Source: Ferruginibacter sp. (GTDB lineage: Bacteria > Bacteroidota > Bacteroidia > Chitinophagales > Chitinophagaceae). Taken from it: a stretch of DNA of 64,000 nt. This document shows positions 7,482-44,373 of this stretch, in pieces; the stretch's first letter is position 1, and the number at the start of each line of letters is the position of its first letter. The stretch is taken from the NCBI RefSeq assembly GCF_028288465.1, contig NZ_JAQBNR010000005.1, positions 62,001-126,000 on the forward strand. The letters run 5' to 3'. The translations under genes were made by a program, and so were the position numbers. Under the pieces are notes generated by a model. The model ran no database searches and had not been told where the DNA came from. It was given only the letters and a program-made list of their open reading frames with translations.

Positions 7482-8399
7482 TCAAACAGCATCTTCCTCT
7501 TTACGACTGCCGGTGATAAACCTCTTCACTGCGCCAAATGCAGCAACAGCGCCGATTGCTATAAATTTCCAGCCTGCAAGTAAAAACTTTCCAATCACTG
7601 CAAAGGCGCCCGTTTTGGCCAGTATTCCACCGGCTACCAATGCACCAATGCCATATTCTGCCACCTTATCTGTGCTTGAATTAAAGTCGCTGTACTTATT
7701 GCCTTCGGTAAAGCCGGGCATTTTTAACACGTCGTCGATGCTGGCTTTCACCAACGGCAGTTCTGCCATAGTTGCTACAGCGTTTAATGATAAAACACCT
7801 TTTCTTCCCAGTACCCTTACTTCGTAATTAAGGGTATTGTAATCAGCAGTTCCAAACTTAAACTCCTTTGCCCAGTGCAATACTTTATTGTTTTTATCAT
7901 AGTAAGGTTTTGCAGCCCAACCGATCACGTAAATAGGTTCGTATCCTGATTTTGCCCTTTCTTTATTTACATCAGCTTCACCCTTTTTCATCTCGGCGAG
8001 CATGTCATCGTAATTTATTTTATCAGCGTCATCGTCTTTTACAAAGCCCTCCTCTTCGTACGTTACAATAAATGCAAAACTGCTATCTGCATACGGGCCA
8101 CCACTGGCAGGAAAGATCATTCCCAGTACATCGGGCTTTGGTGGATTGCCCCACAAATCATGTAAGATATATTTGCTTTGTTCTGCGTTTAAAAACTTAA
8201 AGCCTTTGGAGAGGTTTATTTTTGCGATACCGTTGGCAATGGTTACCGAATTTGTTTCCCACTTTAAGGCGTTTTCTACAGAGTCGATGAGTTTTTCCTG
8301 GCGAATCATTTCTTTCACCGCAGAATCTTCGCCGCCTTTGGCAAATGTGCCGAAGGCACATAAAAATGTACAACAAATAATCAGGGTGATTTTTTTCAT
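7482..8399 (-). CDS. DUF2167 membrane-anchored exported protein
   Basis: A 305-residue protein with an N-terminal signal peptide (MKKITLIICCTFLCAFGTFAKG) and a hydrophobic C-terminal region (about 255-295, rich in Ala, Gly and Ile) followed by a charged tail (GSRKEEDAV). The middle part matches DUF2167: INLSKGFKFLNAEQSKYILHDLWGNPP, a GMIFPASGGPYADSSFAFIVTYEEEGF block, and VIGWAAKPYYDKNNKVLHWAKEF. The function of DUF2167 is unknown. It interrupts the gamma-glutamyl ethanolamine gene set between the amidase (104 bp upstream) and the aldehyde dehydrogenase (176 bp downstream), all on the same strand. It may therefore be co-transcribed, or it may be a passenger. Confidence 0.78.
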   Translation of the reverse strand: MKKITLIICCTFLCAFGTFAKGGEDSAVKEMIRQEKLIDSVENALKWETNSVTIANGIAKINLSKGFKFLNAEQSKYILHDLWGNPPKPDVLGMIFPASGGPYADSSFAFIVTYEEEGFVKDDDADKINYDDMLAEMKKGEADVNKERAKSGYEPIYVIGWAAKPYYDKNNKVLHWAKEFKFGTADYNTLNYEVRVLGRKGVLSLNAVATMAELPLVKASIDDVLKMPGFTEGNKYSDFNSSTDKVAEYGIGALVAGGILAKTGAFAVIGKFLLAGWKFIAIGAVAAFGAVKRFITGSRKEEDAV

Positions 8400-8503
8400 T
8401 TAAGCTGGTTTAAATATAAAGGGACAAAAATTTATCAGGGGTATTTAACCGGCCATCTCAGGATAGCCCTCAGCTTACAATCACAGCCTTCTTATCACTC
8501 TTA

Positions 8504-9220
8504 TCAGGCAACTTTTTTAATCTCTTTCAAAAAACGATCGCGGATGTTTTTGGCAGATGGCAATTCACTCAAATGAAATTTATACATCCGTTCAGGATGC
8601 CACTGTATTGCCAGGAAAAACGATTTGTTTTCTTTCTCAGTCCATTCAACTCCTTCGATAATGCCATCATCAGAACCGCAATTAATAGTAAGTCCTTCGC
8701 CGAGTAAATCAATGCACTGGTGGTGGGCACTATTGGTGATGGTTCTGGTAACACCGGTAATTTCGCTTAGCAAAGTGCCTTTAACGATATTAATACCGTG
8801 CGCCTTATCGTGTTCTTCAAAACGATGAATCGCATTAGAAATTGTGCCAATGTCTTGCCGCAAAGTGCCACCCTGTATGCAATTGATTAACTGCATACCG
8901 CGGCAGATGCCCAATAAGGGCAACTGGCATTGCTGGCTTTCGTGAAAAACAGCAATTTCAAACTCATCCCTTTTTTCATGAAAATGCAACGGTGCGTTTG
9001 GATATATAATATTGGGATTATTATAAAACCTGGGATGCATATCTACGCCGCCGGATAAAACGATGGCATCAAAATCTTTGATGCAACTTAAGTCGGTATG
9101 CTGCGGCTGCAGCGTAATTATTTCTATCGGGTCGCTGCCTTTTAACCATTGTACATAGTTGCTATGCTTTTCATCTGACCCGGTATAGGTGACGCCAATT
9201 TTTATTGCTGGATGCATCAT
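8504..9220 (-). CDS. Class I gamma-glutamyl amidase, PuuD-like (gamma-glutamyl-GABA hydrolase family)
   Basis: Hydrolyses a gamma-glutamyl amide to glutamate plus an amino acid. The 238-residue protein has the class I amidotransferase triad: Cys106 in LGICRGMQ, His208 and Glu210 in IQWHPE. The oxyanion-side motif LSGGVDMHPRFY (about 55-66) is typical of the PuuD group, which acts without a synthetase domain. The start overlaps the preceding alcohol dehydrogenase stop by one base (TAATG), indicating translational coupling. In the proposed route it would release glycine and glutamate from gamma-glutamyl-glycine. The amidase family is firm; the exact substrate is inferred from neighbours. A second ATG two codons in at 9217 is also possible. 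Confidence 0.88.
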   Translation of the reverse strand: MMHPAIKIGVTYTGSDEKHSNYVQWLKGSDPIEIITLQPQHTDLSCIKDFDAIVLSGGVDMHPRFYNNPNIIYPNAPLHFHEKRDEFEIAVFHESQQCQLPLLGICRGMQLINCIQGGTLRQDIGTISNAIHRFEEHDKAHGINIVKGTLLSEITGVTRTITNSAHHQCIDLLGEGLTINCGSDDGIIEGVEWTEKENKSFFLAIQWHPERMYKFHLSELPSAKNIRDRFLKEIKKVA

Positions 9221-10371
9221 TACAAAGCTTCGGTATACAATTGTTTAAAATCCGCTCTTGAGACGGGCTTAGGGTTATTGGGATGACAAAAATCTGCCAG
9301 CGCTAAATCGCTCAATGTTTCGATATGTTCTTCTTTAACTCCAATATCACGCAGTCTTACCGGCAAGCCGACCCGTTGGTTTAGTTCAAACAGATGATTG
9401 ACCACAGCTTCGCCTGTTGTTTTTTCCAGGTCCATTGCCAAAGCCATTCTTTTAAATTCAGTTTCCAAACCCGGGGCGTTAAAACGCATACCGAACGGCA
9501 AGTTGACAGCATTGGCCAAACCATGATGTGTATCTAGCAAAGAAGACAATGGATGCGCCAGGGAGTGCACCACACCCAATCCTTTTTGAAAAGCAACGGC
9601 CCCCATTAACGAGGCAATCATCATTTTACTTCTTGATTCCAGGCTGGGTTTATTAACGGCTTCGGCGATAGATTGGTTGATGAGTAATATTCCTTCCAGC
9701 CCGATGCCTGCTGCCATTGGATGAAAATTTTTGGCGATGAATGCCTCCATATTATGTGTCAGTGCATCCATGCCGGTAGCTGCGGTAACAAACGGCGGTA
9801 ATTCCATTGTAAGCAACGGATCTGCAAAAACTATTTTGGCCATTAGTTTAGGCGCAAATAAAATTCTTTTGCGGTGTGTATCATCTTCTGAAATGATGGC
9901 GCTTCTGCCTACTTCGCTTCCGGTACCACTAGTTGTGGGCACTGTTATAAAATAGGGAACGTCTTCAGTAACATATTGATCGCCGCCAATCAGGTCATCG
10001 TAATCAAATAAATCGCGGTGATGGTTGATGCGTAATACAATGGCCCTGGCCACATCCATTGCTGCACCACCCCCGATGCCAATGATACAATCTCTCCCCG
10101 TTTCGTTGTATGCTTCTCCCCCTTTTAATACATCACTCTTAACCGGGTTTTTATGAATATCGGCAAACACTTCTACAGAAATTCCTTTTGCAGCAAGACT
10201 ATCTTTTATCTCTTTGAAAAAGTCCAGTCCGCTTACCATTGGGTCGGTAACAAGCAACGGCCTGCTTAAGCCGTTGGCCAATAAATGATCCGGTAATTCT
10301 TTGATGGCACCGGCGCCAAATCGGACAATCGTGGGAAAATTAAATTGTCTTACTACATTAAAATCTGTCAT
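9220..10371 (-). CDS. Iron-containing (group III) alcohol dehydrogenase
   Basis: NAD(P)-dependent dehydrogenase of 383 residues with the complete metal site of the group III family: Asp202, His206, His269 and His283, set in MDALTHNMEAF and VVHSLAHPLSSLLDTHHG. The nucleotide-binding GIGGGAAMDVA (about 98-108) is also present. Its 3' end is coupled to the amidase gene (TAATG). In the gamma-glutamyl scheme it would oxidise gamma-glutamyl-ethanolamide to the aldehyde. That step is the reason to favour an amino alcohol as the pathway substrate, because a diamine such as putrescine would need an oxidase (PuuB type) here. The chemistry fits, but the substrate is inferred. Confidence 0.92.
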   Translation of the reverse strand: MTDFNVVRQFNFPTIVRFGAGAIKELPDHLLANGLSRPLLVTDPMVSGLDFFKEIKDSLAAKGISVEVFADIHKNPVKSDVLKGGEAYNETGRDCIIGIGGGAAMDVARAIVLRINHHRDLFDYDDLIGGDQYVTEDVPYFITVPTTSGTGSEVGRSAIISEDDTHRKRILFAPKLMAKIVFADPLLTMELPPFVTAATGMDALTHNMEAFIAKNFHPMAAGIGLEGILLINQSIAEAVNKPSLESRSKMMIASLMGAVAFQKGLGVVHSLAHPLSSLLDTHHGLANAVNLPFGMRFNAPGLETEFKRMALAMDLEKTTGEAVVNHLFELNQRVGLPVRLRDIGVKEEHIETLSDLALADFCHPNNPKPVSRADFKQLYTEAL

Positions 10372-10505
10372 ACAAATTATTTTTTTGATAGTAACGCTGA
10401 TGATACTGATTTGGACGGATCACCGCGAATTTTTAGTTTTTGAATTTTTCGAAAGCCAGGTAAAACCTCAAAGTTAGGAAGTGTACCATAAAGCTGAAAA
10501 AGTAA

Positions 10506-10558
10506 AAGTGTGCGACGCAACCAAAGATTCACACAGTTGTATTTGCCCGGACAAAAAA
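10506..10558. repeat. 53-bp dispersed intergenic repeat, copy 1
   Basis: Two conserved ends, AAGTGTGCGACGCAAC and TGCCCGGACAAAAAA, flank about 22 variable bases. A second copy with the same ends, order and total length lies at about 45632-45684. Both sit between two minus-strand genes, shortly after one stop codon. A 12-base fragment of the same motif (ATCGTTGCGTCG) occurs at 17423-17434 after the S46 peptidase gene. Function unknown. Confidence 0.6.
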
Positions 10559-10583
10559 CTTGACACTTAATAGCGAAATTTTT

Positions 10584-11957
10584 TTAAATAATTTCCAGGT
10601 ATCGTTTCAGTTCCCAATCGGTGACTACTTTAGAAAATTGTCTCCACTCCCATTCTCTTGTTGCGGTAAAATGCTCAACGAAAGTGGCACCGAATAATTC
10701 AGTTGCAATGGGTGAAGTTTTCATTGCCTGTGTTGCTTCCCATAAATTCCTGGGCAATGTACCATTCTTCGTGTCTGCGTAACCGTTACCAACTGTTGGT
10801 TGTGTTTTTAATTTCAGTTTATTGTTAATGCCATACAAACCAGCCGCAAGACAAGCTGCCATTGCGAGATAAGGATTGCTGTCGGAACCTACCACCCTTG
10901 TTTCCAGCCGCGTGCTGCTGCTGCTTCCGGGTAAAGCCCTCAAAGCCGTGGTACGATTGTCGATGGCCCAGGTTAAGGTTGTGGGCGCCCAGGCTCCTTC
11001 TACCAAACGCTTATAACTGTTAACAGTAGGTGCAAACATGGGGAGTATAAACGGCAGGCAGGCCAGCTGACCCGCCATATAACTTTCCATTAAATTGCTT
11101 ATGCCTGTTGCTTTTTTATTATCGTAAAAGAGGTTTTGTTTTTTTGCAGTGCTCCACAAACTCTGGTGCACATGCCCGCTGCAACCGGGTAAATTTTCGT
11201 TGAACTTGGCCATGAATGTGGCGATTACGCCATGCAGATGTGCTATCTGTTTTACCCCACTTTTAAAAAGTACGGCCCTGTCTGCAGCCTCCAGGACTTC
11301 TGAATAAGTGATGGCTGCTTCATATACACCCGGGCCGGTTTCTGTATGCAGGCCTTCGATGGGAACACCAAACTTTTTGAGCAAATCGAAGAGGTCGTTA
11401 AAATAATCATTTTTTTGTGCCACCCTTTGTAACGAATAACCAAACATACCAGGCGTCATCGGCCTTATGTCGCGGAATTTTCCGTTATATAATTCTTCTG
11501 TATTATCCTGCAGGTTGAACCATTCAAACTCCTGTGAAAAATACGGCGTGTAGCCGTTGCTGTTAGCCTGCCCGATAATTTTCTTTAATAAACTGCGGGG
11601 ACAAACTTCCAACCCTTTGCCTTTACTGTCGCAAAAATCTGCCAGGAAAAAAGGCGTTTCATTATCCCAGGGAACCTGGCGAAAAGTATTAAGGTCAACC
11701 ACTGCGGTAGCATCAGGATAACCCGAGTGCCAGCCGGTATACTGACTGTTATCGTATGCCACATCTGCCGAATCCCAGCCAAACACCACATTGCAAAAGC
11801 CAAATCCTTTTTCAACAATGCCGCTGAATTTTTCAAAGCTCATCAGCTTGCCGCGGAGTATGCCATCCATATCGGTGATGGCGAGCTTTACTTTTTCGGT
11901 ATTTTGTTCAGCTAACAGCCGCAACACTTTATCTATTAACTGTGGTTGATTGGACAT
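10584..11957 (-). CDS. Glutamine-synthetase-like gamma-glutamyl-amide ligase
   Basis: ATP-dependent enzyme of the glutamine synthetase I superfamily (457 residues) that would join glutamate to an amine. N-terminal beta-grasp segment KLAITDMDGILRGKLMSFEKF is of the kind seen in PuuA/GlnA4/IpuC-type ligases rather than true glutamine synthetase. The catalytic part has ETGPGVYEAAI, GCSGHVHQSLW (ATP site) and an Arg-rich NRTTALRALPGS followed by TRLETRVVGSDSNPYLAMAA. The length and the absence of an adenylylation-type tail also point to the non-housekeeping group. Its ATG lies inside the end of the permease gene (29-bp overlap), so ligase and transporter are translated together. Gamma-glutamyl-ethanolamide synthetase is the best guess; the amine substrate needs testing. 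Confidence 0.88.
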   Translation of the reverse strand: MSNQPQLIDKVLRLLAEQNTEKVKLAITDMDGILRGKLMSFEKFSGIVEKGFGFCNVVFGWDSADVAYDNSQYTGWHSGYPDATAVVDLNTFRQVPWDNETPFFLADFCDSKGKGLEVCPRSLLKKIIGQANSNGYTPYFSQEFEWFNLQDNTEELYNGKFRDIRPMTPGMFGYSLQRVAQKNDYFNDLFDLLKKFGVPIEGLHTETGPGVYEAAITYSEVLEAADRAVLFKSGVKQIAHLHGVIATFMAKFNENLPGCSGHVHQSLWSTAKKQNLFYDNKKATGISNLMESYMAGQLACLPFILPMFAPTVNSYKRLVEGAWAPTTLTWAIDNRTTALRALPGSSSSTRLETRVVGSDSNPYLAMAACLAAGLYGINNKLKLKTQPTVGNGYADTKNGTLPRNLWEATQAMKTSPIATELFGATFVEHFTATREWEWRQFSKVVTDWELKRYLEII

Positions 11958-15252: not shown

Positions 15253-17415
15253 ATGAAGAAAATTTTGGTGTTAATGCTGTTATCCTTCTCCCTGTTAAAA
15301 GCAAGTGCTGATGAAGGAATGTGGTTACCCATGTTGTTAGGCCAGCAGGTATACAATGACATGGTAAAGAAAGGATTGAAATTAACAAAAGAGCAATTGT
15401 ACTCAGTTAATAAATCATCTTTAAAAGATGCGATTTTAATTTTTGGCGGCGGTTGTACGGGTGAAATAGTCAGCAGCGAAGGGTTGATTTTTACCAATCA
15501 CCATTGTGGTTATTCTGCCATCGCCAATGCCAGTACAGTAGAGCACAATTACCTGCAGGATGGCTTTTACGCATTTAATAAAGACCAGGAAATAAAAAGT
15601 GAATTGACAGTGCAGTTTTTAGACAGGATTGTGGATGTAACCGCCGATGTGGAAGCTGCAGTAAAAGGACTGGCCTGGGCAGACAGGGTTGCAAAAATGC
15701 CGGAAGTATATAAATCCATTACCGATAAAGTATTGGATAAAGAGAATGCGCTGGCGGGAAGAATATACCCGATGTTTAAAGGCAACCAGTACATTATGTA
15801 CGTGTACAAAACATACCGGGATATCCGGCTGGTAGGCGCACCTCCGGAAACAGTTGGTAAATTTGGAGGTGATACAGATAACTGGGAATGGCCCCGCCAC
15901 ACAGGCGATTTTTCTATCTTCAGGGTATATGCAACAAAAGACGGCAAGCCCGCAGATTACAGCAAAGACAATACTCCGTTAAAACCCAAATACTTTTTGC
16001 CGGTAAGTATCAAAGGCATTAAAGATGGTGACTATGCAATGATTTACGGATACCCCGGCGGTACCAACCGGTACGAAACAAGCTATGGCATTAAATTAAA
16101 AAATGAAATTGAAAATCCTTCGCTGGTTAATTTGAGGGATGTGCGTTTAAAAATTATGCACGAACAGATGCTGAAAGATCCGGCCGTAAAATTGAAGCTG
16201 GCAAGCAGTTATGCCAGCATTGCCAATTACTGGAAATTTTTTGATGGCGAAACAAAACAGCTGATTAAGTTTCATACCCAGGAGCAAAAACAGGAGTATG
16301 AAAATAAGTTTGCCGCATGGGCAAAAGCCAAACCCGAATATGAAAATATTTTTGCAGACTATGCAAAAAACTATGCGGCATGGACACCTTATAGCAAACA
16401 ACGGCAGTACATTAACGAAGGTATCATGGGCTCACCACTTGCAGCTTTTGCAGCTTCATTAATCGGGGTCGAAACCAACCTTGTAAAGCAGGGTATTTCT
16501 TCTGCCGATATCAAAAAATCGGTTGATGCTGCGACTGCTGCACGGAAAATTTTTTTGGCTGCTGAAGACAGGCCAAGCGATGAAAAAATTATGGCTCAAA
16601 CAGCCCGGCTCTTTTATACAGACATAGATAAAAGCCAGCACCCGATTGGTTTTTATGATGGCATTAAAAATGGATTTGGCGATTTAAAAGAGGAGCTTAC
16701 ATTTAAAAAATGGGCCGGCAATGTGTTTGATAGAACAATGATTTTAGATGATGCCAAATGGGCCGCTTTTGTTGCTAACCCCGATGCTACTGTTTTACAG
16801 GCGGACCCCGCTTTTGCATATGCATCTGCCTTTATAAAAAACTACAATCTGAAATATGCGCCCTTGTATGCTGCGTTTAACAGTAACAATGCGGCACTGG
16901 GTAAAAGTTATATGAAGGGTATTATGGAAATGAATCCGGCAGCAGCCAGCAAAATGTATCCTGACGCCAACTTTAGCATGCGGGTAAGTTTTGGCAATGT
17001 AAAAAGCTACAATCCGCGGGATGCCGTGCATTATGATTATGTTACTACGGGTAGAGGCGTGATAGAAAAATACAAAGCAGGCGATTATGAATTTGATTTA
17101 CCTGCCAAACAAATTGAGCTGATGAAGAAAAAAGATTTTGGCCAGTATATTGATAAGGGCAGGAACGACCTGGTGGTAGATTTTATAACTACCAATGATA
17201 TTACCGGCGGTAACAGCGGTAGCCCGGTGATTGATGGCAGCGGAAATTTGATAGGCCTTGCATTTGACGGCAACTACGAGGCACTTAGCCATAAAATTGC
17301 GTTTGACAAGGATTTAAATCGTACTATCTGTGTGGATGTACGTTATGTACTGTGGTGTATTGACAAGCTTGGTGGTGCAAAAAATATCATCAGTGAGCTA
17401 AAGTTGATTAAGTAA
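15253..17415 (+). CDS. S46 family dipeptidyl peptidase, DPP7 type
   Basis: Periplasmic or surface serine exopeptidase of 720 residues that removes dipeptides from peptide N termini. A signal peptide (MKKILVLMLLSFSLLKASA) is followed by the S46 hallmark DEGMWLP. The catalytic His is in TNHHCGY and the catalytic Ser is Ser655 in GGNSGSPV. The residue that separates DPP7 from DPP11 in this family lies in GLAFDGNYEAL. Here it is Gly673, as in DPP7 (hydrophobic P1 preference), not Arg as in the Asp/Glu-specific DPP11. The substrate class is inferred from that single position. These enzymes let asaccharolytic or protein-using Bacteroidota feed on peptides. A good -7 box precedes the gene. Confidence 0.93.
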   Translation: MKKILVLMLLSFSLLKASADEGMWLPMLLGQQVYNDMVKKGLKLTKEQLYSVNKSSLKDAILIFGGGCTGEIVSSEGLIFTNHHCGYSAIANASTVEHNYLQDGFYAFNKDQEIKSELTVQFLDRIVDVTADVEAAVKGLAWADRVAKMPEVYKSITDKVLDKENALAGRIYPMFKGNQYIMYVYKTYRDIRLVGAPPETVGKFGGDTDNWEWPRHTGDFSIFRVYATKDGKPADYSKDNTPLKPKYFLPVSIKGIKDGDYAMIYGYPGGTNRYETSYGIKLKNEIENPSLVNLRDVRLKIMHEQMLKDPAVKLKLASSYASIANYWKFFDGETKQLIKFHTQEQKQEYENKFAAWAKAKPEYENIFADYAKNYAAWTPYSKQRQYINEGIMGSPLAAFAASLIGVETNLVKQGISSADIKKSVDAATAARKIFLAAEDRPSDEKIMAQTARLFYTDIDKSQHPIGFYDGIKNGFGDLKEELTFKKWAGNVFDRTMILDDAKWAAFVANPDATVLQADPAFAYASAFIKNYNLKYAPLYAAFNSNNAALGKSYMKGIMEMNPAAASKMYPDANFSMRVSFGNVKSYNPRDAVHYDYVTTGRGVIEKYKAGDYEFDLPAKQIELMKKKDFGQYIDKGRNDLVVDFITTNDITGGNSGSPVIDGSGNLIGLAFDGNYEALSHKIAFDKDLNRTICVDVRYVLWCIDKLGGAKNIISELKLIK

Positions 17416-30087: not shown

Positions 30088-31545
30088 ATGAAATTGAATT
30101 ACCGGACAATATTTTTACTTCCAGCTGTTTTACTCACCAATTTTTGTACAGGTCAGAAAAAGGCTTCAGGTGCGGAATCATTTAAGAGCCAGGCGATAGC
30201 CGACATACAGGCGAAATACCAGGACTACCGTCAGACTGCCATGCAGATATGGAACTTTGCTGAGGTTGGTTACAAGGAAGAAAAAAGCACGGCATTACTG
30301 CAACAGGTATTAAGTGATAATGGCTTTACCATTCAAAAAGGCGTCGCGTCAATACCAACCGCCTTTGTTGCAAGCTATGGCACCGGGCAACCGGTAATCG
30401 CTATCCTGGCAGAGTTTGACGCTTTGCCCGGCTTGTCCCAGGAAGCCATTCCGGAAAAAAAGAGTATACCCGGCAAAGCTGCCGGCCAGGCATGCGGCCA
30501 TCATTTATTTGGAACTGCTTCAGTAGCTGCCGGCATTGAAATAAAAAAACTGATTGAACAAAAAAAGCTCACCGGTACAATCAGGGTTTATGGTTGCCCC
30601 GCGGAGGAGGGCGGTTCCGGAAAAGTATTTATGGTGCGGGCAGGTTTGTTTAATGATGTGGATGTGGCCATACATTGGCACCCGGGCGATAACAATAGTG
30701 TTACCATGATGAGCGCATTGGCAAACAAGTCAGCTAAATTCCGTTTTCATGGTATATCAGCACATGCTGCGGCTTCGCCTGAAAAAGGCAGGTCTGCCCT
30801 GGATGCAGTAGAAGCAATGGATAATATGGTTAATATGATGCGGGAACATATTCCGCAGGAAACCCGGATTCATTATGTAATTACCAATGGAGGTAAAGCC
30901 CCTAACGTGGTACCGGATTTTGCAGAGGTGTATTATTATGTACGCCATCCTAAGAGAGAGGATGTAGTGAAAATATTTGATCGTGTAGTGAAAGCTGCCA
31001 ACGGAGCGGCAATGGGAACTGAAACTACTGTTGACTACGAAATTATCGGCGGAACACACGACCTGCTTTTAAATAAAACACTGGCCGAAGACATGCAACT
31101 AAACCTGGAAAAAGTAGGAGGCGTGCATTTAAGTGCTGATGAAATTGAATTCGGGAAAAAATTGCAGATCAGCTTTGGTCCAGCGCCACCTGAAATTGCT
31201 ACCGCTGCCATTGTAAAACCGTTAAAGGCGGGAGATACCTCAGGTGGTGGTTCTACAGATGTTGGCGACGTGAGTTATGCTGTGCCTACGGTTGGTATGC
31301 AGGCCGCCACATGGATACCGGGCACTCCGGCACACAGCTGGCAGGCCGTTGCCTGCGGGGGAACTGAAATAGGAACAAAAGGTATGATGGTGGCGGCCAA
31401 AACAATGACGCTGACTGCCATTGATCTCTTTTTGAATCCTGCACTGATTGCAAAAGCAAAACAGGAATTTATACAGGATAAAGGCGATTACCAGTACAAA
31501 GCTTTGCTTGGGGATATCAAACCAGCTTTGAATTACAGGGATTAA
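30088..31545 (+). CDS. Exported M20-family amidohydrolase (AbgB-like)
   Basis: Metal-dependent amidohydrolase of 485 residues. An N-terminal signal-like segment (MKLNYRTIFLLPAVLLTNFCTG) suggests export. M20 features include AILAEFDALPGLS (about 110-122), GQACGHHLFG, EEGGSGKVFMVRAGLF, a dimerisation domain with ISAHAAASPEKGRSALDAV, and the C-terminal metal-site region (STDVGDVSYAVPT, GTPAHSWQAVACGGTEIGTKGM). Relatives cleave p-aminobenzoyl-glutamate or N-acyl amino acids. The substrate here is unknown. A perfect hairpin terminator follows 15 bp after the stop, so it is probably monocistronic. Confidence 0.88.
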   Translation: MKLNYRTIFLLPAVLLTNFCTGQKKASGAESFKSQAIADIQAKYQDYRQTAMQIWNFAEVGYKEEKSTALLQQVLSDNGFTIQKGVASIPTAFVASYGTGQPVIAILAEFDALPGLSQEAIPEKKSIPGKAAGQACGHHLFGTASVAAGIEIKKLIEQKKLTGTIRVYGCPAEEGGSGKVFMVRAGLFNDVDVAIHWHPGDNNSVTMMSALANKSAKFRFHGISAHAAASPEKGRSALDAVEAMDNMVNMMREHIPQETRIHYVITNGGKAPNVVPDFAEVYYYVRHPKREDVVKIFDRVVKAANGAAMGTETTVDYEIIGGTHDLLLNKTLAEDMQLNLEKVGGVHLSADEIEFGKKLQISFGPAPPEIATAAIVKPLKAGDTSGGGSTDVGDVSYAVPTVGMQAATWIPGTPAHSWQAVACGGTEIGTKGMMVAAKTMTLTAIDLFLNPALIAKAKQEFIQDKGDYQYKALLGDIKPALNYRD

Positions 31546-32377: not shown

Positions 32378-34519
32378 CTATTTGTCCTTTGTAAAAATAT
32401 AACTGCCACCGCCCTGCGACAGGGAAAGTTCGTTTTTAACTAAATCGAAAACAATAACCAACCCCGCGGCTTCAAAACTAAAGCTGTCTTTGCCTGTATT
32501 ATTAAGAGCTATTTTCTCCTGACCTGTAGCTTCCAGTTGAAGGCTGTTATCTTCATTTGTAAAAGTCAGTTTAATCGGGATATTTTTGTTTGAATATACC
32601 CCGGTGTATTTATCAAAATTTATTGTTGCAACAGTATTTATCTTCTTTACACCCCATTTATTATTGCTCTCATCTGCATCCATGTAAATACCGCCATCCA
32701 GTTTTAAAAAAGCAATTTTCTTTTTAGTTTTAATGTTAATGATAGCGGCTTGCAGGTTCTTTTCCCAAATGCCGGCCGTTGCATGAATGGTTTCTTTTGT
32801 ACTATCAGTATACTCTACCAATACGTCTGTTGGTATTGCAAAGCCGCCAATGTTTTTTATGGTAAGAGAATAACCTCCGGCCACAGGAGCCAATTTATCT
32901 ACCGCAATATCCATGTAATAAGTACTCAAAAACCAGTTACTGAAAAACCAGTTCAGATTTTTTCCGGAGAAAGTTGAAAAGCTATTAAACATATCCCATG
33001 GAATTGGGTGCTTGCCATGCCAGCTATCCATAAATCCATGCAAAGACTTTTTGAATAATTCATCGCCGAGCATATCTTTTAACGCCAGGTAAGCAAGTGC
33101 AGGTTTACCATATTCATTATGTCCCATGGCTTGTCCGCTTAAAATATTTACCGGTGTAATGATGGGCACCTGTGTTTCATCTGATGGATTTAGAGCCCAG
33201 CCTGCAACCCTGAATTGTTTGAAAAAATTATTCGCTTTTTCTTTCCCAAGATCCACTTGGCCTATCAGGTTTTCGAATGCTGTTGTCCAGCCTTCATCCA
33301 TAAAACCATAGCGGTGTTCGTTGATGCCCATGTAAAAAGGAAAATAAGAATGTCCTACTTCATGCTCAGCAATAAAGCGTTGCATAATGTCGTCATCCTG
33401 GCGGCTGTCGTTGGCCATCATCGGATACTCCATATCCGCAAATCCTTCTATGATTGTGCTTTTGGGAAAAGGATATGCTACCCCTGGCCAGTTATTACTG
33501 TACCAGTCAAGTGAATGCTGAATGTGCTTTACCTGGTTATGAAAATTAGTGGCGCTATTTAAATAGGCGGACTGACAACTCGCCCTGCGACCGGTTTTTT
33601 TATCCACCAAAACACTTGCAGCATCCCATACATAATGGTCGCTTATGCAATATGCCATGTCACTGATATCAGTTGCTTTCCATTTCCATGTGTTGGTTGC
33701 ATTTTGTGTGGTTATATTCTTTGCTTCAATATCTTTTTGGGTAGCAACATTTATCACATCATCACTCGTAAAACTTTTATTGAATTTTTCGAGATAAACA
33801 GGTTGTAATACTTCCGCAGCATTTAATAAATCACCGGAGCCCCAAACCAAAAAGTTTTTAGGAACGGTAACGGCAACGGTGTAGTCATTAAAATCATTAT
33901 AAAACTCCTGAGCATCTGTAAAGTCCATTCTGTCCCAGCCAAACACATCGTCCATTACCGCAACTCTTGGGTAAAAATAAGCCAGGAAAAAACTGGTGCT
34001 GTCGAGTTTGCCTTCCCGGCCACTACGGTCACTTAAATCATAATGCCATTTAAAACTTAATTGTACGCTGTCGCCTGTGGCAACAGGTTTGGTAAGGCTT
34101 ACCCGTTTCCATGTTTCGCCACGGGCATCGCCAAAATTGGTAACCGTGCCGTTTTGAGTAAACTGATCAATATGAATACCGGTAGTTAAATAGTCTGCTC
34201 CGGTTGCGCTTTGCCTTTCTGCTCCCGGATTATGAATGTTCATGATCAGTTTAATTACAATGCTGCTGATTGGCTTTGGGCTGTTGTTGATATAGGTAAT
34301 GGTTTCATCACCGGTAACGGTTTTTGCAGGCGGTGCAACTGCAACATTAATGGTATACCGGCCATAGTTTTGCCAGTATTTTTTTCCGGGTCTGCCGTCC
34401 ATGCTGCGTGTTTCATTGGTGTATGCCTTTTTTATATTTTGTGGCATATATACAGGCTGCTGTGCATATACAATATTGGTTGCTGCGATCAGGCAGGCCG
34501 CCAAAAAGACTTTGTTCAT
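32378..34519 (-). CDS. Secreted M1-family zinc metallopeptidase
   Basis: Aminopeptidase-type protein of 713 residues from the ATG at 34519 (MNKVFLAACLIAATNIVYAQ signal peptide); an in-frame upstream codon at 34552 would bury the signal. The zinc motif HEVGH lies at residues 386-390 and the third ligand Glu at 409, the exact HExxH-18-E spacing of M1 enzymes. The usual GxMEN exopeptidase motif is modified to GFADMEYP, as in a large Bacteroidota subgroup. N-terminal beta domain (TVTGDETITYINNSPKPIS) and a C-terminal beta region are present. It probably degrades extracellular or periplasmic peptides. No T9SS signal is visible. Confidence 0.9.
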   Translation of the reverse strand: MNKVFLAACLIAATNIVYAQQPVYMPQNIKKAYTNETRSMDGRPGKKYWQNYGRYTINVAVAPPAKTVTGDETITYINNSPKPISSIVIKLIMNIHNPGAERQSATGADYLTTGIHIDQFTQNGTVTNFGDARGETWKRVSLTKPVATGDSVQLSFKWHYDLSDRSGREGKLDSTSFFLAYFYPRVAVMDDVFGWDRMDFTDAQEFYNDFNDYTVAVTVPKNFLVWGSGDLLNAAEVLQPVYLEKFNKSFTSDDVINVATQKDIEAKNITTQNATNTWKWKATDISDMAYCISDHYVWDAASVLVDKKTGRRASCQSAYLNSATNFHNQVKHIQHSLDWYSNNWPGVAYPFPKSTIIEGFADMEYPMMANDSRQDDDIMQRFIAEHEVGHSYFPFYMGINEHRYGFMDEGWTTAFENLIGQVDLGKEKANNFFKQFRVAGWALNPSDETQVPIITPVNILSGQAMGHNEYGKPALAYLALKDMLGDELFKKSLHGFMDSWHGKHPIPWDMFNSFSTFSGKNLNWFFSNWFLSTYYMDIAVDKLAPVAGGYSLTIKNIGGFAIPTDVLVEYTDSTKETIHATAGIWEKNLQAAIINIKTKKKIAFLKLDGGIYMDADESNNKWGVKKINTVATINFDKYTGVYSNKNIPIKLTFTNEDNSLQLEATGQEKIALNNTGKDSFSFEAAGLVIVFDLVKNELSLSQGGGSYIFTKDK

Positions 34520-34673
34520 ACTATATTTTTTAATGAAAATAAGAAGCGGCAATGTACCAACTATTTATTTTACATAAGTGGTAATAATATTTATAAAGGT
34601 ATAACTCCGTAATCTTGTTTACAATTTACGTCGCGTCAGCCGAATTTTATTTATTCAGAAAAAAACAAATGCG

Positions 34674-37926: not shown

Positions 37927-38358
37927 TCAGGTTTTTTCTACCGTTATTCCCTCATGGGTTAGCACCAGTGTTTCCATGGCAACGCCACTATCGGCTGCAT
38001 TCAGCACAGGTCCCTGGTATTTAACAGGAAAGGCGTTTTTTAATCGCCAGACAACTATCTGGGCGTGGCTTTCATCCAATAAAGAAATGGTTACATCCCT
38101 TCTCTCAACTGTGCCAATCTTTTCTGTATTCAGCCATTCAAACAATTCATTGTCGCCTTTTACAATAGCCCGTTTCAGCGTGATATCTGTAAACTTTCTC
38201 AAGCCGGGGATTTTGCGGAAACTATTGTCAGGATCAGCGCCATCTCTGAATGAAACAGCTTCAATCTCAATATCCAGTCCGCTTACTTCTGTAAAGCCAA
38301 TTCTTGTACCGCCCCATTGTACACTAAAATGGTAACGACTGATCGCATTGTGTGACAT
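37927..38358 (-). CDS. Orphan contractile-tail tube protein (gp19 / TIGR02241 type)
   Basis: Tail tube protein of 143 residues from the ATG at 38358 (MSHNAISRYHFSVQWGG). A longer frame to 38433 would add an implausible hydrophobic leader. Family features: FTEVSGLDIEIEAVSFRDG, KIPGLRKFTDITLKRAIVKGDNELFEW, and DVTISLLDESHAQIVVWRLKNAFPVKY. In phages and in extracellular contractile injection systems this protein stacks into the inner tube. No sheath, baseplate, spike or ATPase gene is near, so it is isolated. Convergent with the GH92 gene, with 14 bp between stops. Likely a component acting with a system encoded elsewhere, or a domesticated protein. Confidence 0.82.
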   Translation of the reverse strand: MSHNAISRYHFSVQWGGTRIGFTEVSGLDIEIEAVSFRDGADPDNSFRKIPGLRKFTDITLKRAIVKGDNELFEWLNTEKIGTVERRDVTISLLDESHAQIVVWRLKNAFPVKYQGPVLNAADSGVAMETLVLTHEGITVEKT

Positions 38359-38535
38359 AAATAAAGGTTTTATAATAAAGAAGAAAATTAGCAGTAATGA
38401 AATCAGCAGTAACAATACTTGTATAAAAAGCATCTGGTAAGTTTTAGTCTGTTAAAATAAAAAAAAATTACCAGGAAGTGAAACAAAAAAAACCATCACA
38501 ACAACTTACCTCTGCTTCGCATCATTGTTCCTATT

Positions 38536-39538: not shown

Positions 39539-42049
39539 ATGGCAAAGCAGGTAATTTTTTTATTTTTTATTGCGATCGCTTCCACAACACAGGCACAGCA
39601 ACTGGACGTAAAAAAACTGGACAGCGCATTTACAGGGTTAAATAAAACGCATCGTTTCAATGGTACGGTGTTATATGCAGAAAAAGGGAAAGTGTTATAC
39701 AGCAAGGCTTTTGGCGTAACCGACTGCCGCACGAATGAGCCGCTTAAAACTACATCTTCGTTTAACCTGGCCTCTGTTACCAAGCAGTTTATTGGCATGG
39801 GTATTATGATATTGAAAGAAAGGGGGCAACTGCAGTTTGATGACGATTGCAAAAAATACATTCCTGAATTACCATATGATGGCATTACGATCCGCAACCT
39901 GATGACACATACTTCGGGTATCCCGGAATATTTTGATCTGTTTAAAATGTATAAAACGCCGCTGGATACACTTACCAATGAAAAACTGATTAGTCTTTAT
40001 GGTACTTATAAGCCGGTACTCGACTTTGCTACCGGCAGCAAATGGAATTACTGTAACACTAACTATGTTTTGCTGGTAAGTATTATTGAGCGCATCAGTA
40101 AACAAACCATTGACGTGTTTGTAAAAAAGAATATCACTGCTCCACTGGGCCTGAAAGACACCTACGTGTATCATGTATTGATGCCTGCAGTACCAGCCAA
40201 TCATGTGTATGGGTTTGAGGAAACAGGGGAGAAGAAAAAATTAAATGACCTGACTCCGTTTGACGGCGTGGTAGGAGATGGCAACATCTATTCATCTGTG
40301 GAAGATTTGTATAAATGGGAACAAAGCTTAGGTACCGGTAAATTGGTAAAGAAAGAAACTTTTACAGAAGCACTTTTGCCAGTCAAATTGAAAGATGGTA
40401 CTACCTATCCATATGGCTTTGGATGGTTCATCGAAAAAGATAAAGAAGGTGCTTATTCACATACCGGCGGCTGGGTTGGCTTTGCCAATTTAATTTACAG
40501 GGATACAAAAAGTAAGCGCACCATCATTCAGCTAAGCAGTGGCAGCAATGGCTGGGGCATTCGCACAGCAAGAAATTTTATACAGGGAAAGCCACTGGAT
40601 ATCGCACCAACAATGCTGATAAAAAATGTAGCCGTAATGGATGGTACGGGTGCACCTGCAAAGAATGAATCGGTGAGGATACAAGGGAAAAAAATTATTG
40701 CCGTTGGAAATTTGCAGCCTTTTGAAGGCGAAGAAATCATCGATGGCGAAGGAAAGATTTTATCGCCGGGTTTTATAGACAGTCACAGCCATGTAGAAAG
40801 TTCATTGAAAAACTACCCTGAAGGGATTGCAGCTTTGAACCAGGGTATTACTACCATCGTTGGCGGACAAGACGGCGAAAGTGATCCGGTAGACAGCCTG
40901 AAAGCTGAAATAAAAGCTACGCCCATTGCCATTAACCTGGCTACTTATACAGGGCACGCAACCATCCGGCAACAGGTGATGGGCGCCGCCAATTTATCAA
41001 GACCAGCGAAGCCGGAAGAGTTGGAAAAAATAAAACAAATCTTAAAAGCAGAATTACAAAAAGGCTCACTTGGTTTATCTACAGGCCTGGAATATGAAGA
41101 AGGATTTTACAGCAACCGCTTTGAAGTGATTGAACTCGCTAAAACTGCAGCGGCAGAAAAAGGAAGATACATCAGTCATATCCGGAGCGAAGATATTAAT
41201 ATGACTGATGCCATTGATGAGATCATCCAGATTGGCAAAGAGGCGAAATTACCAGTGCAGATTTCACACATGAAAATCGCATTAAAAGATGACTGGGGTA
41301 CCGCCAATAAATTATTGGCAACTTTGCAACATGCAAGGGCGGAAGGCATAGACATTACTGCTGACTGCTATCCTTACGATGCCTGGCATAGCACTATGCG
41401 GGTGCTGTTTCCCAAAAAAGATTTTACGAGCCTGGCAAGTGCTACCTATGCAACGGATCATTTGTTTGATGCAGATGGATCGGTGCTGGTACATTTTGCA
41501 GCTGATACATCCTACAATGGAAAAACGTTTGGCGCCATTGCCAGGATCAGGAAGGAGACGGCAGCTCAAACGCTGCTGTACCTGGTGGGCACTGCAGAAG
41601 CTTACCAGCGGCAGCATCCCGGCGAATCGGGAGAAGATATCATGGGGAAGTCGATGGCTGACGAAGACATCCGGACTTTGCTTGCATGGCCGCATACCAA
41701 TTTGTGCTCAGACGGCGCCAACGGCGGCCATCCGCGGGGATATGGCAGTTTTACAAAGTTGTTAAACCAATATGTAAAGCAACAAAAAATCATGAGTTGG
41801 GAAGCCGCCATTAATAAAATGACCGGGCTTGCTGCAGAACATACAGGCATCACTAACCGCGGTATAATTGCGCCCGGTTACTATGCAGACCTGGTGTTAA
41901 TCGATCCCGATACTGTAAAGGATAATTCGACAATTCAAAATTCAAAAGCATTGAGTGATGGCATAAAAAAAGTATGGGTAAATGGTGTGCTGGTATACAT
42001 TGATAAAACATTTTTAAATAAATACCCGGGTGAGTTTGTGGGCAGGTGA
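39539..42049 (+). CDS. Fusion of a class C beta-lactamase-type serine hydrolase and an N-acyl-D-amino-acid deacylase
   Basis: An 836-residue exported protein (signal peptide to about TTQAQ) with two full enzyme domains. Residues about 25-350 form a penicillin-binding/class C type serine hydrolase: SVTK (79-82), YCN (171-173) and HTGG (308-311). Residues about 357-836 form an amidohydrolase of the D-aminoacylase group. It has metal ligands in FIDSHSHVE (His416, His418), GLSTGLEYEEGFY, SHIRSED, ISHMKIALKDDWG, DCYPYDAW and a final GIIAPGYYADLVLIDPDTV. It is the first of three plus-strand genes with dgcN and dgcA. The N-terminal domain could remove D-residues from peptides and the C-terminal domain could deacylate N-acyl-D-amino acids. 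Both activities are inferred from families. Confidence 0.88.
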   Translation: MAKQVIFLFFIAIASTTQAQQLDVKKLDSAFTGLNKTHRFNGTVLYAEKGKVLYSKAFGVTDCRTNEPLKTTSSFNLASVTKQFIGMGIMILKERGQLQFDDDCKKYIPELPYDGITIRNLMTHTSGIPEYFDLFKMYKTPLDTLTNEKLISLYGTYKPVLDFATGSKWNYCNTNYVLLVSIIERISKQTIDVFVKKNITAPLGLKDTYVYHVLMPAVPANHVYGFEETGEKKKLNDLTPFDGVVGDGNIYSSVEDLYKWEQSLGTGKLVKKETFTEALLPVKLKDGTTYPYGFGWFIEKDKEGAYSHTGGWVGFANLIYRDTKSKRTIIQLSSGSNGWGIRTARNFIQGKPLDIAPTMLIKNVAVMDGTGAPAKNESVRIQGKKIIAVGNLQPFEGEEIIDGEGKILSPGFIDSHSHVESSLKNYPEGIAALNQGITTIVGGQDGESDPVDSLKAEIKATPIAINLATYTGHATIRQQVMGAANLSRPAKPEELEKIKQILKAELQKGSLGLSTGLEYEEGFYSNRFEVIELAKTAAAEKGRYISHIRSEDINMTDAIDEIIQIGKEAKLPVQISHMKIALKDDWGTANKLLATLQHARAEGIDITADCYPYDAWHSTMRVLFPKKDFTSLASATYATDHLFDADGSVLVHFAADTSYNGKTFGAIARIRKETAAQTLLYLVGTAEAYQRQHPGESGEDIMGKSMADEDIRTLLAWPHTNLCSDGANGGHPRGYGSFTKLLNQYVKQQKIMSWEAAINKMTGLAAEHTGITNRGIIAPGYYADLVLIDPDTVKDNSTIQNSKALSDGIKKVWVNGVLVYIDKTFLNKYPGEFVGR

Positions 42050-42056
42050 GATGATC

Positions 42057-42107
42057 AACCTATGGGATTTTTTGAAAGCCGACTGAGCGAAGAAAATCCC
42101 ATAGGTT
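42057..42107 (+). promoter_or_regulatory. Long hairpin between the hydrolase fusion and dgcN
   Basis: A perfect 15-bp inverted repeat, AACCTATGGGATTTT / AAAATCCCATAGGTT, with a 21-nt loop. It begins 8 bp after the fusion-gene stop and ends 54 bp before the dgcN ATG. No T-run follows directly. It may be a partial terminator, a processing site that sets different expression of the two genes, or a mobile palindromic element. Confidence 0.5.
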
Positions 42108-42160
42108 TACCGAAGGGTTTGCAAAAAGAATTATTGTTTAATAAAAAACAGATTTAATAA

Positions 42161-43225
42161 ATGATGACTGAAACAAAACCTAAAGCCATTGTATTAACAG
42201 ATGGCCTGTTACAAACCGCAGATGCTAAAACAGCTCATGGCCTTATCCGTGGCACAGAACGGTACGAAATCGTGGGTGTAATCGATAGCCAGTTTGAAGG
42301 ACGGGATGCAGGCGAAGTGCTGGATGGCATTCACCGCAACATTCCGGTGCTGGCCAGTGTGGAAGCAGCAATACAATCAATACAGGATATACAATTTTGT
42401 ATTATTGGCATTGCAACAGTAGGCGGAAAACTGCCGGCGCATTTTATGCCCATCATACAATCCTGCATACAAAATAAAATCTCAATGGTCAATGGCCTGC
42501 ACGATTTTTTAACCGGCATGCCGGAATTGGTAAAAATGGCAAATGAATTTGGCGTTACACTTACCGATGTAAGAAAGCCCAAAGAAAGAAAAGACCTGCA
42601 CTTTTGGAAAGGCGACATATTTAATTTGAAGGCTCCGGTGATTGCTGTGATAGGAACCGATTGTGCGCTGGGAAAACGCACCACTTGCCGAATGGTGAAG
42701 CATGCATGTTTAGAAGCAGGCATCAATGCACAAATGATTTATACCGGGCAAACGGGCTGGCTGCAGGGCGGTCAATATGGATTTATTTTCGACAGCACTT
42801 TAAATGATTTTATTTCGGGTGAACTGGAACATGCCATTCTTTCCTGCGCTGAAAATACACATCCAGAAGTGTTGTTGGTAGAAGGGCAATCCGCCTTACG
42901 CAACCCTAGTGGGCCTTGCGGCTCTGAGCTGTTGGTTTCGGGCAATGCAAAAAATGTGATACTGGTACATGCACCCAAGAGAAAATATTATGATGGGATA
43001 CCAGAATGGGGTACAATACATTCACTCGCTTCTGAAATTGAACTTATCAAATTGTACGGTTCTGCTGTAATTGCCGTGGCTATTAATACAGAGCATTGCA
43101 CAACCGAAGAAGCATTGGAATTTCAAAAAAAGTATGAAGCAGAATTACAATTGCCTGTGCTGCTGCCTTTACAGCAAGGCGTTGGAAAAATAATTCCCAT
43201 CATCAAAACCCTTATAAAAAACTAA
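42161..43225 (+). CDS. dgcN: DUF1611 family protein, DgcN-type (D-glutamate N-acetyltransferase candidate)
   Basis: Protein of 354 residues with a P-loop GTDCALGKRTT at 165-175 and DUF1611 segments: LTDVRKPKERKDLHFW, YTGQTGWLQGGQYG, LVEGQSALRNPSGPCG and APKRKYYDG. The family was long of unknown role. It is now annotated as DgcN, which N-acylates D-glutamate and works with a racemase DgcA. Here the dgcA homologue starts 2 bp after its stop (TAATCATG), a strong sign of joint function. The ATG at 42161 is followed by a second ATG one codon later. The acetylation role rests on the family and neighbour, not on a motif that proves the substrate. Confidence 0.85.
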   Translation: MMTETKPKAIVLTDGLLQTADAKTAHGLIRGTERYEIVGVIDSQFEGRDAGEVLDGIHRNIPVLASVEAAIQSIQDIQFCIIGIATVGGKLPAHFMPIIQSCIQNKISMVNGLHDFLTGMPELVKMANEFGVTLTDVRKPKERKDLHFWKGDIFNLKAPVIAVIGTDCALGKRTTCRMVKHACLEAGINAQMIYTGQTGWLQGGQYGFIFDSTLNDFISGELEHAILSCAENTHPEVLLVEGQSALRNPSGPCGSELLVSGNAKNVILVHAPKRKYYDGIPEWGTIHSLASEIELIKLYGSAVIAVAINTEHCTTEEALEFQKKYEAELQLPVLLPLQQGVGKIIPIIKTLIKN

Positions 43226-43227
43226 TC

Positions 43228-44295
43228 ATGAAAATTAAATCAGTAAAAGCGTGGCTGCAACACTTGTCGCTCACAAAGCCTTATACCATTGCCTACAAAA
43301 CAATAGCGGATACTGAAATTATTTTTCTGGAAATTGTTTTGGAAAATGGCATTGTTGGTCTTGGTGCATCCAACCCTTTTGCAGAAGTAGTAGGAGAGAC
43401 GCCTGCCATGGCACTGGCCAACCTGCAAAGCGATTTTGTACAGCAACTAACAGGCAGGGATATACGCCATTTCAATCAGCTGATTGACGAAGCACTGGTG
43501 AAGTTCCCGCATTTGCCCGGTACCATTGCAGCTATTGACATTGCATTGCATGATGCCTTCTGCCAGCTGATCGGTATTCCTGTGGTTGATTTATATGGAC
43601 GCAAGATGAATGCATTGCCAACATCCATCACCATTGGTATAAAAGATACTGCCGCTATGCTGGAAGAAGCCAAAGCAAACTATGCTGCTGGCTTTAAAGT
43701 AATCAAAATAAAAACCGGGCTGGATGTGGAGGAAGATATTGAAAGGGTAACAAAACTTACGGAGCAATTTGGCAACAACATGCTGATAAGAGTAGATGCC
43801 AACCAGGGCTATGATTTGAAGCAACTGCAACAGTTTATACATAAAACAAAAGACCTTTCCATAGAGCTGATTGAACAGCCAATGAAGGCGGGCAAGGAAA
43901 GTGATTTGGCCGGACTCGATTCAGCTGATAGGAAAAAGCTGGCTGCGGATGAATCCCTGCTGGATGCAACATCAGCTTTGCAACTGTCGCACCCGCCAGC
44001 ACCGTTTGTTATTTTCAATATCAAACTGATGAAATGCGGCGGTATAAGAGGCGCCAGGGAAATCGCTACCATCGCAGCCGCAGCCGGTATTGATTTGTTT
44101 TGGGGATGCAATGATGAAAGCATTGTAAGCATAACCGCAGCGTTGCATGCGGCCTTCAGTTGCAGCAACACCAAATACCTTGATTTGGATGGAAGCTTTG
44201 ACCTGAGCAGTGATTTGGTTAAGGGCGGTTTTATTTTAAAAGATGGTGTGATGTATTGTAGTGATGAGGCTGGGCTGGGCTTGCATAGGTTATAA
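43228..44295 (+). CDS. dgcA: Enolase-superfamily racemase/epimerase, DgcA-type (or dipeptide epimerase)
   Basis: Protein of 355 residues in the muconate-lactonising subgroup of the enolase superfamily. Catalytic features: the KxK pair in VIKIKTG, metal ligands in RVDANQG, ELIEQP and AADESL, and a second Lys in NIKLMKCGG. In the DgcN/DgcA pathway it interconverts N-acetyl-D-glutamate and N-acetyl-L-glutamate. Close relatives are L-Ala-D/L-Glu epimerases that recycle murein peptides. The two activities cannot be separated by reading alone. Linkage with dgcN (2-bp gap) and the deacylase fusion supports D-amino-acid metabolism either way. Confidence 0.87.
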   Translation: MKIKSVKAWLQHLSLTKPYTIAYKTIADTEIIFLEIVLENGIVGLGASNPFAEVVGETPAMALANLQSDFVQQLTGRDIRHFNQLIDEALVKFPHLPGTIAAIDIALHDAFCQLIGIPVVDLYGRKMNALPTSITIGIKDTAAMLEEAKANYAAGFKVIKIKTGLDVEEDIERVTKLTEQFGNNMLIRVDANQGYDLKQLQQFIHKTKDLSIELIEQPMKAGKESDLAGLDSADRKKLAADESLLDATSALQLSHPPAPFVIFNIKLMKCGGIRGAREIATIAAAAGIDLFWGCNDESIVSITAALHAAFSCSNTKYLDLDGSFDLSSDLVKGGFILKDGVMYCSDEAGLGLHRL

Positions 44296-44327: not shown

Positions 44328-44373
44328 ATAAAAAGAAAAGATGCATTGGTTTAAATGCATCTTTTCTTTTTAT
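44328..44373. terminator. Bidirectional terminator between dgcA and an oxidoreductase gene
   Basis: A 20-bp perfect stem whose core is AAAAAGAAAAGATGCATT / AATGCATCTTTTCTTTTT with a 6-nt loop, and T-rich ends on both strands. It lies between two convergent genes, 32 bp after the dgcA stop and 17 bp after the oxidoreductase stop. Confidence 0.8.

Follow-up and report, generated by a model that had tools for sequence, protein, structure and literature searches.

The window, a stretch of 64,000 nucleotides from Ferruginibacter sp. (contig NZ_JAQBNR010000005.1, positions 62,001 to 126,000), carries on its plus strand a set of three genes, coding in this order for a fusion of an S12-type SxxK hydrolase with a D-aminoacylase-type amidohydrolase, for a DUF1611 protein and for an epimerase of the enolase superfamily. 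The linkage between the three is not a matter of chance. The set is of a known general kind, DUF1611 with an enolase-type racemase, but its proteins belong to a distinct clade and are accompanied here by a two-domain hydrolase that is probably secreted. We give a probability of about one half to the reading that these genes form a cassette for the salvage (scavenging) of D-amino acids. A cationic D-residue (Lys, Orn or Arg) is our leading guess for the substrate, and D-Glu is disfavoured.

The fusion gene (836 residues, positions 39539 to 42049) is followed after 111 bp by the DUF1611 gene (354 residues, 42161 to 43225) and this, after a gap of 2 bp, by the epimerase gene (355 residues, 43228 to 44295). 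A first-pass annotation, made from the letters of the DNA, had described three plus-strand genes, the 2-bp gap and the protein families, and in this it was correct: the coordinates of the open reading frames (ORFs) match exactly and all three proteins score over the Pfam cut-offs.

Linkage of the three genes in other genomes

In a sample of 147 genomes of the same family, the window's genome among them, DUF1611 was found in 27. Close epimerases, counting the window's own and others with 49-75% identity, were present in 24 genomes, all of them with DUF1611, and the two genes adjoined each other in 23 of the 24; G124 has them on different contigs. Orthologues of the deacylase, defined by at least 52% identity, were found in 20 genomes, 15 being full-length fusions. 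Deacylase and DUF1611 occurred together in 16 genomes (Fisher p 5e-11, with related genomes treated as independent) and were adjacent in 11 of these 16, spanning 10 genera, with a divergent arrangement in two.

A second set comprised the best 80 of at least 592 DUF1611 loci, a selection that leans towards the window; the best match per locus was taken, up to 9 kb on each side of DUF1611, and contig ends truncate some of the loci. Since several of these named loci come from genomes of the family sample (L087 and L080, for instance, have identical deacylases), the two counts are not independent. A close epimerase lay at most 1.6 kb from DUF1611 in 72 of the 80 loci, and a deacylase at most 2.4 kb from it in 26 loci of three phyla (17/57 in Bacteroidota, 7/12 in Planctomycetota, 2/3 in Thermodesulfobacteriota and 0/8 in the other loci). 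The adjacency in the high-GC Planctomycetota rests on tblastn because ORF calls are poor there. All deacylase (26/26) and enolase (72/72) best matches of at least 150 bits fell within 2.4 kb of DUF1611; strong best matches were all near this gene, the farthest being one permease at 2406 bp. Wherever both ORFs had been called, DUF1611 and epimerase were on the same strand (63/63), and no more than 30 bp separated them in 52 of these loci. Eight of the 80 loci had no close epimerase; the contigs of L099 and L127 end less than 400 bp from DUF1611. Lack of linkage of the fusion gene in relatives had been set beforehand in the first-pass annotation as one outcome that would refute its proposal, and the linkage withstood this test: the fusion is linked in 10 loci, all from Bacteroidota, and a standalone deacylase without the S12 part in 16.

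Other hydrolases and transporters were found beside the sets. A class-A-like SxxK hydrolase (PF13354) was located near DUF1611 in 12 of the 80 loci (11 Bacteroidota and 1 Balneolota), never together with a deacylase. The Polaribacter locus has an M55 D-aminopeptidase immediately upstream, and that of Agaribacillus an S66 LD-carboxypeptidase and a protein matching both PF13354 and M14. An amino acid permease is nearby in nine of the 80 loci, downstream in eight of them. In Desulfospira and Desulfopila the order is epimerase, DUF1611, deacylase and then an SBP_bac_5 protein, the Desulfopila set having also an ATP-binding cassette (ABC) ATPase with oligo_HPY nearby; further genes lie in between. 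NlpC/P60 did not emerge as a general neighbour, with no match of at least 150 bits in the 80 loci to a Halorussus protein used as query. In Halorussus itself a "dipeptide epimerase" lies by DUF1611, with NlpC/P60, DacB and a dipeptide ABC protein; another haloarchaeal region has DUF1611 and a "dipeptide epimerase" alone, and Haladaptatus caseinilyticus has a D-aminoacylase beside DUF1611 and dipeptide epimerases. Among 12 plasmid regions, retrieved from 102 records with DUF1611, a racemase or epimerase adjoined DUF1611 in 10, one of these by tblastn in an unannotated record. The theme of D-amino acids put forward in the first-pass annotation was supported, and peptidoglycan-type hydrolases lie beside the sets of relatives; its choice of D-Glu as substrate was not supported.

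Clades and conserved residues of the encoded proteins

The DUF1611 protein was matched by PF17396 and PF07755 (DUF1611_N and DUF1611) with 75.3 and 196.1 bits, over the cut-offs of 22.6 and 25. It had been named DgcN, and its partner DgcA, after the D-glutamate pathway of Pseudoalteromonas, in whose original study DgcN is said to be an N-acetyltransferase. This identification failed for both proteins, and with it the proposed route from D-Glu through N-acetyl-D-Glu to N-acetyl-L-Glu was left unsupported. The DgcN equivalog model NF041892 gave 133.1 bits vs a cut-off of 480, while three annotated DgcN proteins passed with 493.1, 524.7 and 523.4 bits. In a FastTree phylogeny of 93 DUF1611 proteins, five DgcN rows (four annotated, and one labelled by us from an unannotated record) formed a separate clade (support 100) and the window's protein fell in a clade of 81 (support 97). 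H114, D136, R138, the GxxxxxGK loop, TGQ, E223 and Q243 are common to all 93 rows, DgcN included. Within the epimerase-linked clade Glu221 and Glu256 never vary (81/81 each), the DgcN rows having Ala or Ser at position 221 and, depending on the alignment, Gly/Ala or Leu/Met at position 256; Glu221 was also found in three rows beside pyridoxal phosphate (PLP) racemases. The residue after the GK of the P-loop, where a Ser or Thr normally binds Mg-ATP, is Arg throughout the 88 non-DgcN rows, the five DgcN rows having Met instead.

An AlphaFold2 (AF2) model of the DUF1611 protein, with a predicted local distance difference test score (pLDDT) of 92.8, matched 2obn, 2g0t and 7xrj at Z 33-39, the last of these entries being titled "N-acetyltransferase DgcN-25328". 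After these DUF1611 entries came dethiobiotin synthetases at Z 15, matching only from residue 151 or so onwards; dethiobiotin synthetase, CbiA-type enzymes and CTP synthases, to which the P-loop half is similar, are all ATP-dependent. The GNAT fold that DgcN is said to have was not adopted for this protein, the nearest folds shown outside DUF1611 being P-loop enzymes, and the absence of GNAT proteins among them proves nothing. In G075 (L050, 4238-6214), the DUF1611 reading frame begins with about 300 additional residues, in frame at the N-terminus, and comes to 658 residues in total.

The epimerase matched MR_MLE_N and MR_MLE_C over the Pfam cut-offs. The DgcA equivalog model NF042940 gave 142.5 bits vs a cut-off of 400, passed by two annotated DgcA proteins (402 and 436.3 bits), and the models for L-Ala-D/L-Glu epimerases were likewise missed (NF041118, 196.8 vs 500 bits; PRK15129, 83.5 vs 343 bits). 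In a FastTree phylogeny of 87 enolase rows, the 72 locus enolases, the window's protein and 3RIT formed one clade of 74 with local support 98, to which neither DgcA nor the haloarchaeal enolases nor the three other epimerases from the PDB belong. The best solved match is 3RIT/3RO6 from Methylococcus capsulatus, named dipeptide epimerase, with 335 bits vs 178 for the next; we take this enzyme to have been solved with an L-Arg-D-Lys ligand and assigned to cationic dipeptides. The catalytic KxK, the metal ligands D, E and D and the second Lys are kept in 73/73 rows of the epimerase group. The DxD motif is present too; it was discarded as a means to tell dipeptide epimerases from DgcA, being found in both. 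Asp296 occurs in 70 of the 72 group rows with a residue at that site and in 3RIT; its position is taken by Val, Leu or Ile in the five DgcA rows, by Leu in five enolases of haloarchaea and by Ile in 1JPM. An Arg invariant across the five DgcA rows has its counterpart in only 4 of 73 locus enolases.

The clade is tied to the Methylococcus enzyme by gene order as well. Five of 369 genomes from the class to which G147 (titled as gammaproteobacterial) belongs match 3RIT at E of at most 1e-60, one of them with 90% identity, and in this one a DUF1611 gene on the same strand precedes the epimerase gene by about 10 bp; its product is 46% identical to the window's DUF1611 protein and carries the clade signatures GWxQGG and RNPSGPCGxE. 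DUF1611 adjoins the epimerase in three of the five genomes (one being G147, already among the 80 loci), and none was found in the stretches retrieved around the epimerase in the other two. The window's epimerase thus shares with that of M. capsulatus the clade, the catalytic residues, Asp296 and, judged by the 90% homologue, a DUF1611 neighbour; it differs in sequence (about 46-49% identity), and no S12-deacylase fusion was found in the stretch retrieved around the Methylococcus-like gene. With YkfB and YcjG, the L-Ala-D/L-Glu epimerases of murein recycling (excerpts of PMC5808125), it has in common the superfamily, the catalytic lysines, DxD and, in relatives, peptidase neighbours, but these fall in another clade (1JPM) and the NCBIfam cut-offs are missed.

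The fusion was matched by Beta-lactamase (residues 28-337) and Amidohydro_3 (399-820) over the Pfam cut-offs. Its N-terminus, MAKQVIFLFFIAIASTTQAQQ, resembles by eye a Sec signal peptide of about 20 residues (39539 to 39598), and export, as the first-pass annotation had proposed, is probable. The S12 domain (39620 to 40549) has S79xxK82, Y171xN173 and H308-T-G310, and the deacylase domain (residues 359-836, 40613 to 42046) has H416, H418, Asp445, H547, H577, K579, Y613, D725 and R733, placed by alignment to reference residues from excerpts of PMC12017989. Both halves of the AF2 model (pLDDT 85.4) gave Foldseek matches: the S12 half a Pyrococcus penicillin-binding protein homologue, ClbP, the R61 DD-peptidase, the alkaline D-peptidase and the D-stereospecific hydrolase dHy1, and the deacylase half, at its best, N-acyl-D-amino-acid deacylases (9gv8, 9g5m) and OngB (E about 4e-40). 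The S12 half shares fold, SxxK, YxN and HTG with those S12 D-peptidases but is joined to a deacylase and only 21-28% identical to them. It was rejected as a class C beta-lactamase, whose third motif is KTG and not HTG, the NCBIfam model giving 57.3 bits vs a cut-off of 415. Of the 25 fused rows, two being identical to each other, 24 keep SxxK; in the fusion of Arsenicibacter (L096, 6325-8946, minus strand), it is replaced by AVSR and the deacylase residues are intact.

In an alignment of 48 deacylases, DUF1611-linked and unlinked mixed, four His, Lys, Asp and Arg are conserved throughout and Tyr in 46, the two dgcN-linked members having Trp. The fold and the carboxylate-binding Lys, Tyr and Arg of D-aminoacylases were all found. 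As to the Cys/His/His metal site and catalytic Asp of D-aminoacylase subtype V, the two His and the Asp are there and the Cys is replaced by Asp445. The same exchange was seen in 41 of the 48, both dgcN-linked ones included, and Cys is retained in seven (two Desulfobacterota, four Planctomycetota and Haladaptatus). Since the fold and the other residues match, Asp445 for Cys would not seem to make D-aminoacylase-like working less likely. The deacylase half thus shares with D-aminoacylase (1m7j, 9g5m, 3gip) and OngB (PMC12017989, in excerpt) the fold, four His, the catalytic Asp and Lys/Tyr/Arg, and it is distinguished from them by this Asp, by the S12 fusion and by the probable export.

Compared with the DgcN-DgcA system, mentioned in excerpts of PMC10845958 and PMC12363236, the window has the same order of DUF1611 and enolase-superfamily racemase and common core residues, but its proteins fall in other clades, score below the equivalog cut-offs and carry other clade residues, and no LysR regulator dgcR is annotated in the window neighbourhood. 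An amidohydrolase lies near the annotated dgcN-dgcA of Pseudoalteromonas (where it shares 32% identity with the deacylase half in the window) and Sphingobium; none was seen in the stretches viewed of Pantoea and Vibrio pelagius. The first-pass claim that no described pathway joins these parts stood in one respect, no description of the triad having been found among the papers listed from the open-licence PMC literature (subscription papers lay outside the search), and is weakened in the other by these two amidohydrolases. Not every DUF1611-enolase pair should be taken for a D-glutamate pathway, and surveys of dgcN in Bacteroidetes (excerpts of PMC12363236) may contain the window's clade, a multi-phylum DUF1611 clade separated from DgcN and tied to an enzyme with a solved structure.

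Proposed D-amino-acid salvage and competing explanations

S12 D-peptidases generally cleave the bond C-terminal to a D-residue. The S12 half would cut in this way outside the cytoplasm, leaving an acyl- or peptidyl-D-amino acid, and the fused amidohydrolase half would then split the N-acyl-D-amino acid bond. The product of the first step is the kind of compound that D-aminoacylases act on, and the release of D-amino acids by the fusion would thus take two steps, a testable example of two D-specific hydrolases in series. Free D-amino acids, or dipeptides containing them, would be imported via a permease. In the cytoplasm, DUF1611 may N-acylate the D-amino acid, in an acyl-CoA-dependent reaction by analogy with DgcN, the epimerase would invert the N-acyl or dipeptidyl residue at its alpha-carbon, and a housekeeping L-specific amidase or dipeptidase would release the L-amino acid. 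The linkage over phyla, the class-A-like hydrolases, permeases, M55, S66 and M14 proteins among the neighbours, the D-aminoacylase of the haloarchaeon, the structural matches of both fusion halves, the core residues common to DUF1611 and DgcN and the kept catalytic residues speak for such a salvage.

The acidic residues specific to the clade in both DUF1611 and epimerase hint at a cationic ligand. We advance, tentatively and as rather unlikely in its full form, an unrecognised second DUF1611-epimerase pathway, parallel to DgcN-DgcA, for D-Lys, D-Orn or D-Arg, in which DUF1611 would N-acylate, the Methylococcus-type epimerase would invert and the secreted two-step enzyme would feed the version found in Bacteroidota; if it is true, the crystallised Methylococcus "dipeptide epimerase" gains its physiological role.

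Several observations weigh against salvage by a three-gene cassette. Deacylase and DUF1611 lie apart in five of the 147 family genomes (one deacylase being at a contig end), the fusion occurs without DUF1611 in four, and 29 of the 57 Bacteroidota loci have neither a deacylase nor a class-A-like hydrolase nearby. By Pfam annotation, no amino acid permease adjoins the three genes within the window, and DUF1611 stands without an adjoining racemase in two of the 12 plasmid regions (Vibrio coralliilyticus and a Streptomyces). The deacylase tree, a quick IQ-TREE run, requires five or more gains or losses of the S12 half, which makes this part optional, and the S12 half of the Arsenicibacter member is catalytically broken. 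A hairpin with a 17-pair stem (42057 to 42107, plus strand; -29.5 kcal/mol, z -5.2) stands between the fusion and DUF1611 and may uncouple the two genes. Some of these facts, namely the fusions without DUF1611 and the 111-bp gap with its hairpin, together with the finding of DUF1611 in neither of two same-genus genomes examined, would also fit a fusion that belongs to some other process, with DUF1611 and epimerase as the sole unit. This explanation, already disfavoured, is hardly credible, since deacylase adjoins DUF1611 in 11 of the 27 family genomes with DUF1611 (10 genera), in 26 of 80 loci (three phyla) and in one archaeon.

The deacylases linked in Desulfospira and Desulfopila have no obvious signal peptide and could undo the N-acylation in the same compartment, a weak point of the salvage model. 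This speaks for another deacylase substrate in these bacteria or else for a route over dipeptides. In the latter, an imported L-X-D-Y would be epimerised directly, much as YkfB and YcjG act on L-Ala-D-Glu, and DUF1611 would be not an N-acetyltransferase but, for example, a P-loop ligase for the synthesis or modification of dipeptides. No futile cycle would then arise in Desulfobacterota, the enolase clade includes 3RIT, named dipeptide epimerase, the SBP_bac_5 protein and the oligopeptide-type ABC ATPase lie by the Desulfospira and Desulfopila sets, and the P-loop half of DUF1611 is like ATP-dependent enzymes. The Arg found in 88/88 non-DgcN rows where Ser or Thr is expected argues against it, as does the need for a new DUF1611 function despite core residues that match DgcN, and the DxD motif does not discriminate in its favour. 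We regard this route as possible, though doubtful, and place it second after salvage. The original proposal, DgcN and DgcA acting on D-Glu supplied by the exported fusion, has become improbable: the superfamilies, their order, the DUF1611 core residues and the amidohydrolases near true dgcN-dgcA agree with it, but both equivalog cut-offs are missed by far while controls pass, the clades are separate, the DgcA-invariant Arg is nearly absent and both proteins have additional acidic residues. Still less probable is detoxification, in which antibiotics with D-residues, be they nonribosomal peptides or beta-lactams, would be destroyed by the fusion and their fragments removed by the two cytoplasmic proteins. 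The S12 fold is indeed common to D-stereospecific peptidases, ClbP and beta-lactamases, and a class-A-like SxxK protein substitutes in 12 of the 80 loci, but the HTG motif and the low class C score oppose it, and the neighbours elsewhere are general peptidases and transporters.

Further features of the window and of related loci

The hairpin at 42057 to 42107 is a possible attenuator or internal terminator; it was rejected as a member of a repeat family, as it exists in a single copy in the 6.88-Mb genome. A terminator-like hairpin 3' of the epimerase gene (44328 to 44373, plus strand), obtained by a consensus scan, is a weak call, as shuffled sequences gave more such sites. A T4 gp19-like tail-tube protein is encoded on the minus strand at 37927-38433, its nearest NCBIfam models being phage tail region and CIS5 tube adaptor, and the window ORFs that were scanned gave no further match to a tail or an injection system.

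In plasmids of Vibrio (Vibrio lentus) and Phaeobacter (L040, 6872-9210; L041, 6953-9204), DUF1611 overlaps the gene of a PLP racemase of the alanine/ornithine type. Racemases of the PLP type require the amino group to be free, so DUF1611 may act after the racemase there. In Maribacter (L157-L159, about 7900-11120), a PLP fold-II (PALP) enzyme is encoded directly upstream of DUF1611 and epimerase, and in L158 a CitMHS-type transporter stands behind the set. Within the window itself, genes for peptidases S46, M20 and M1 lie at 15253-17415, 30088-31545 and 32378-34552, respectively, and may be partners in peptide use.

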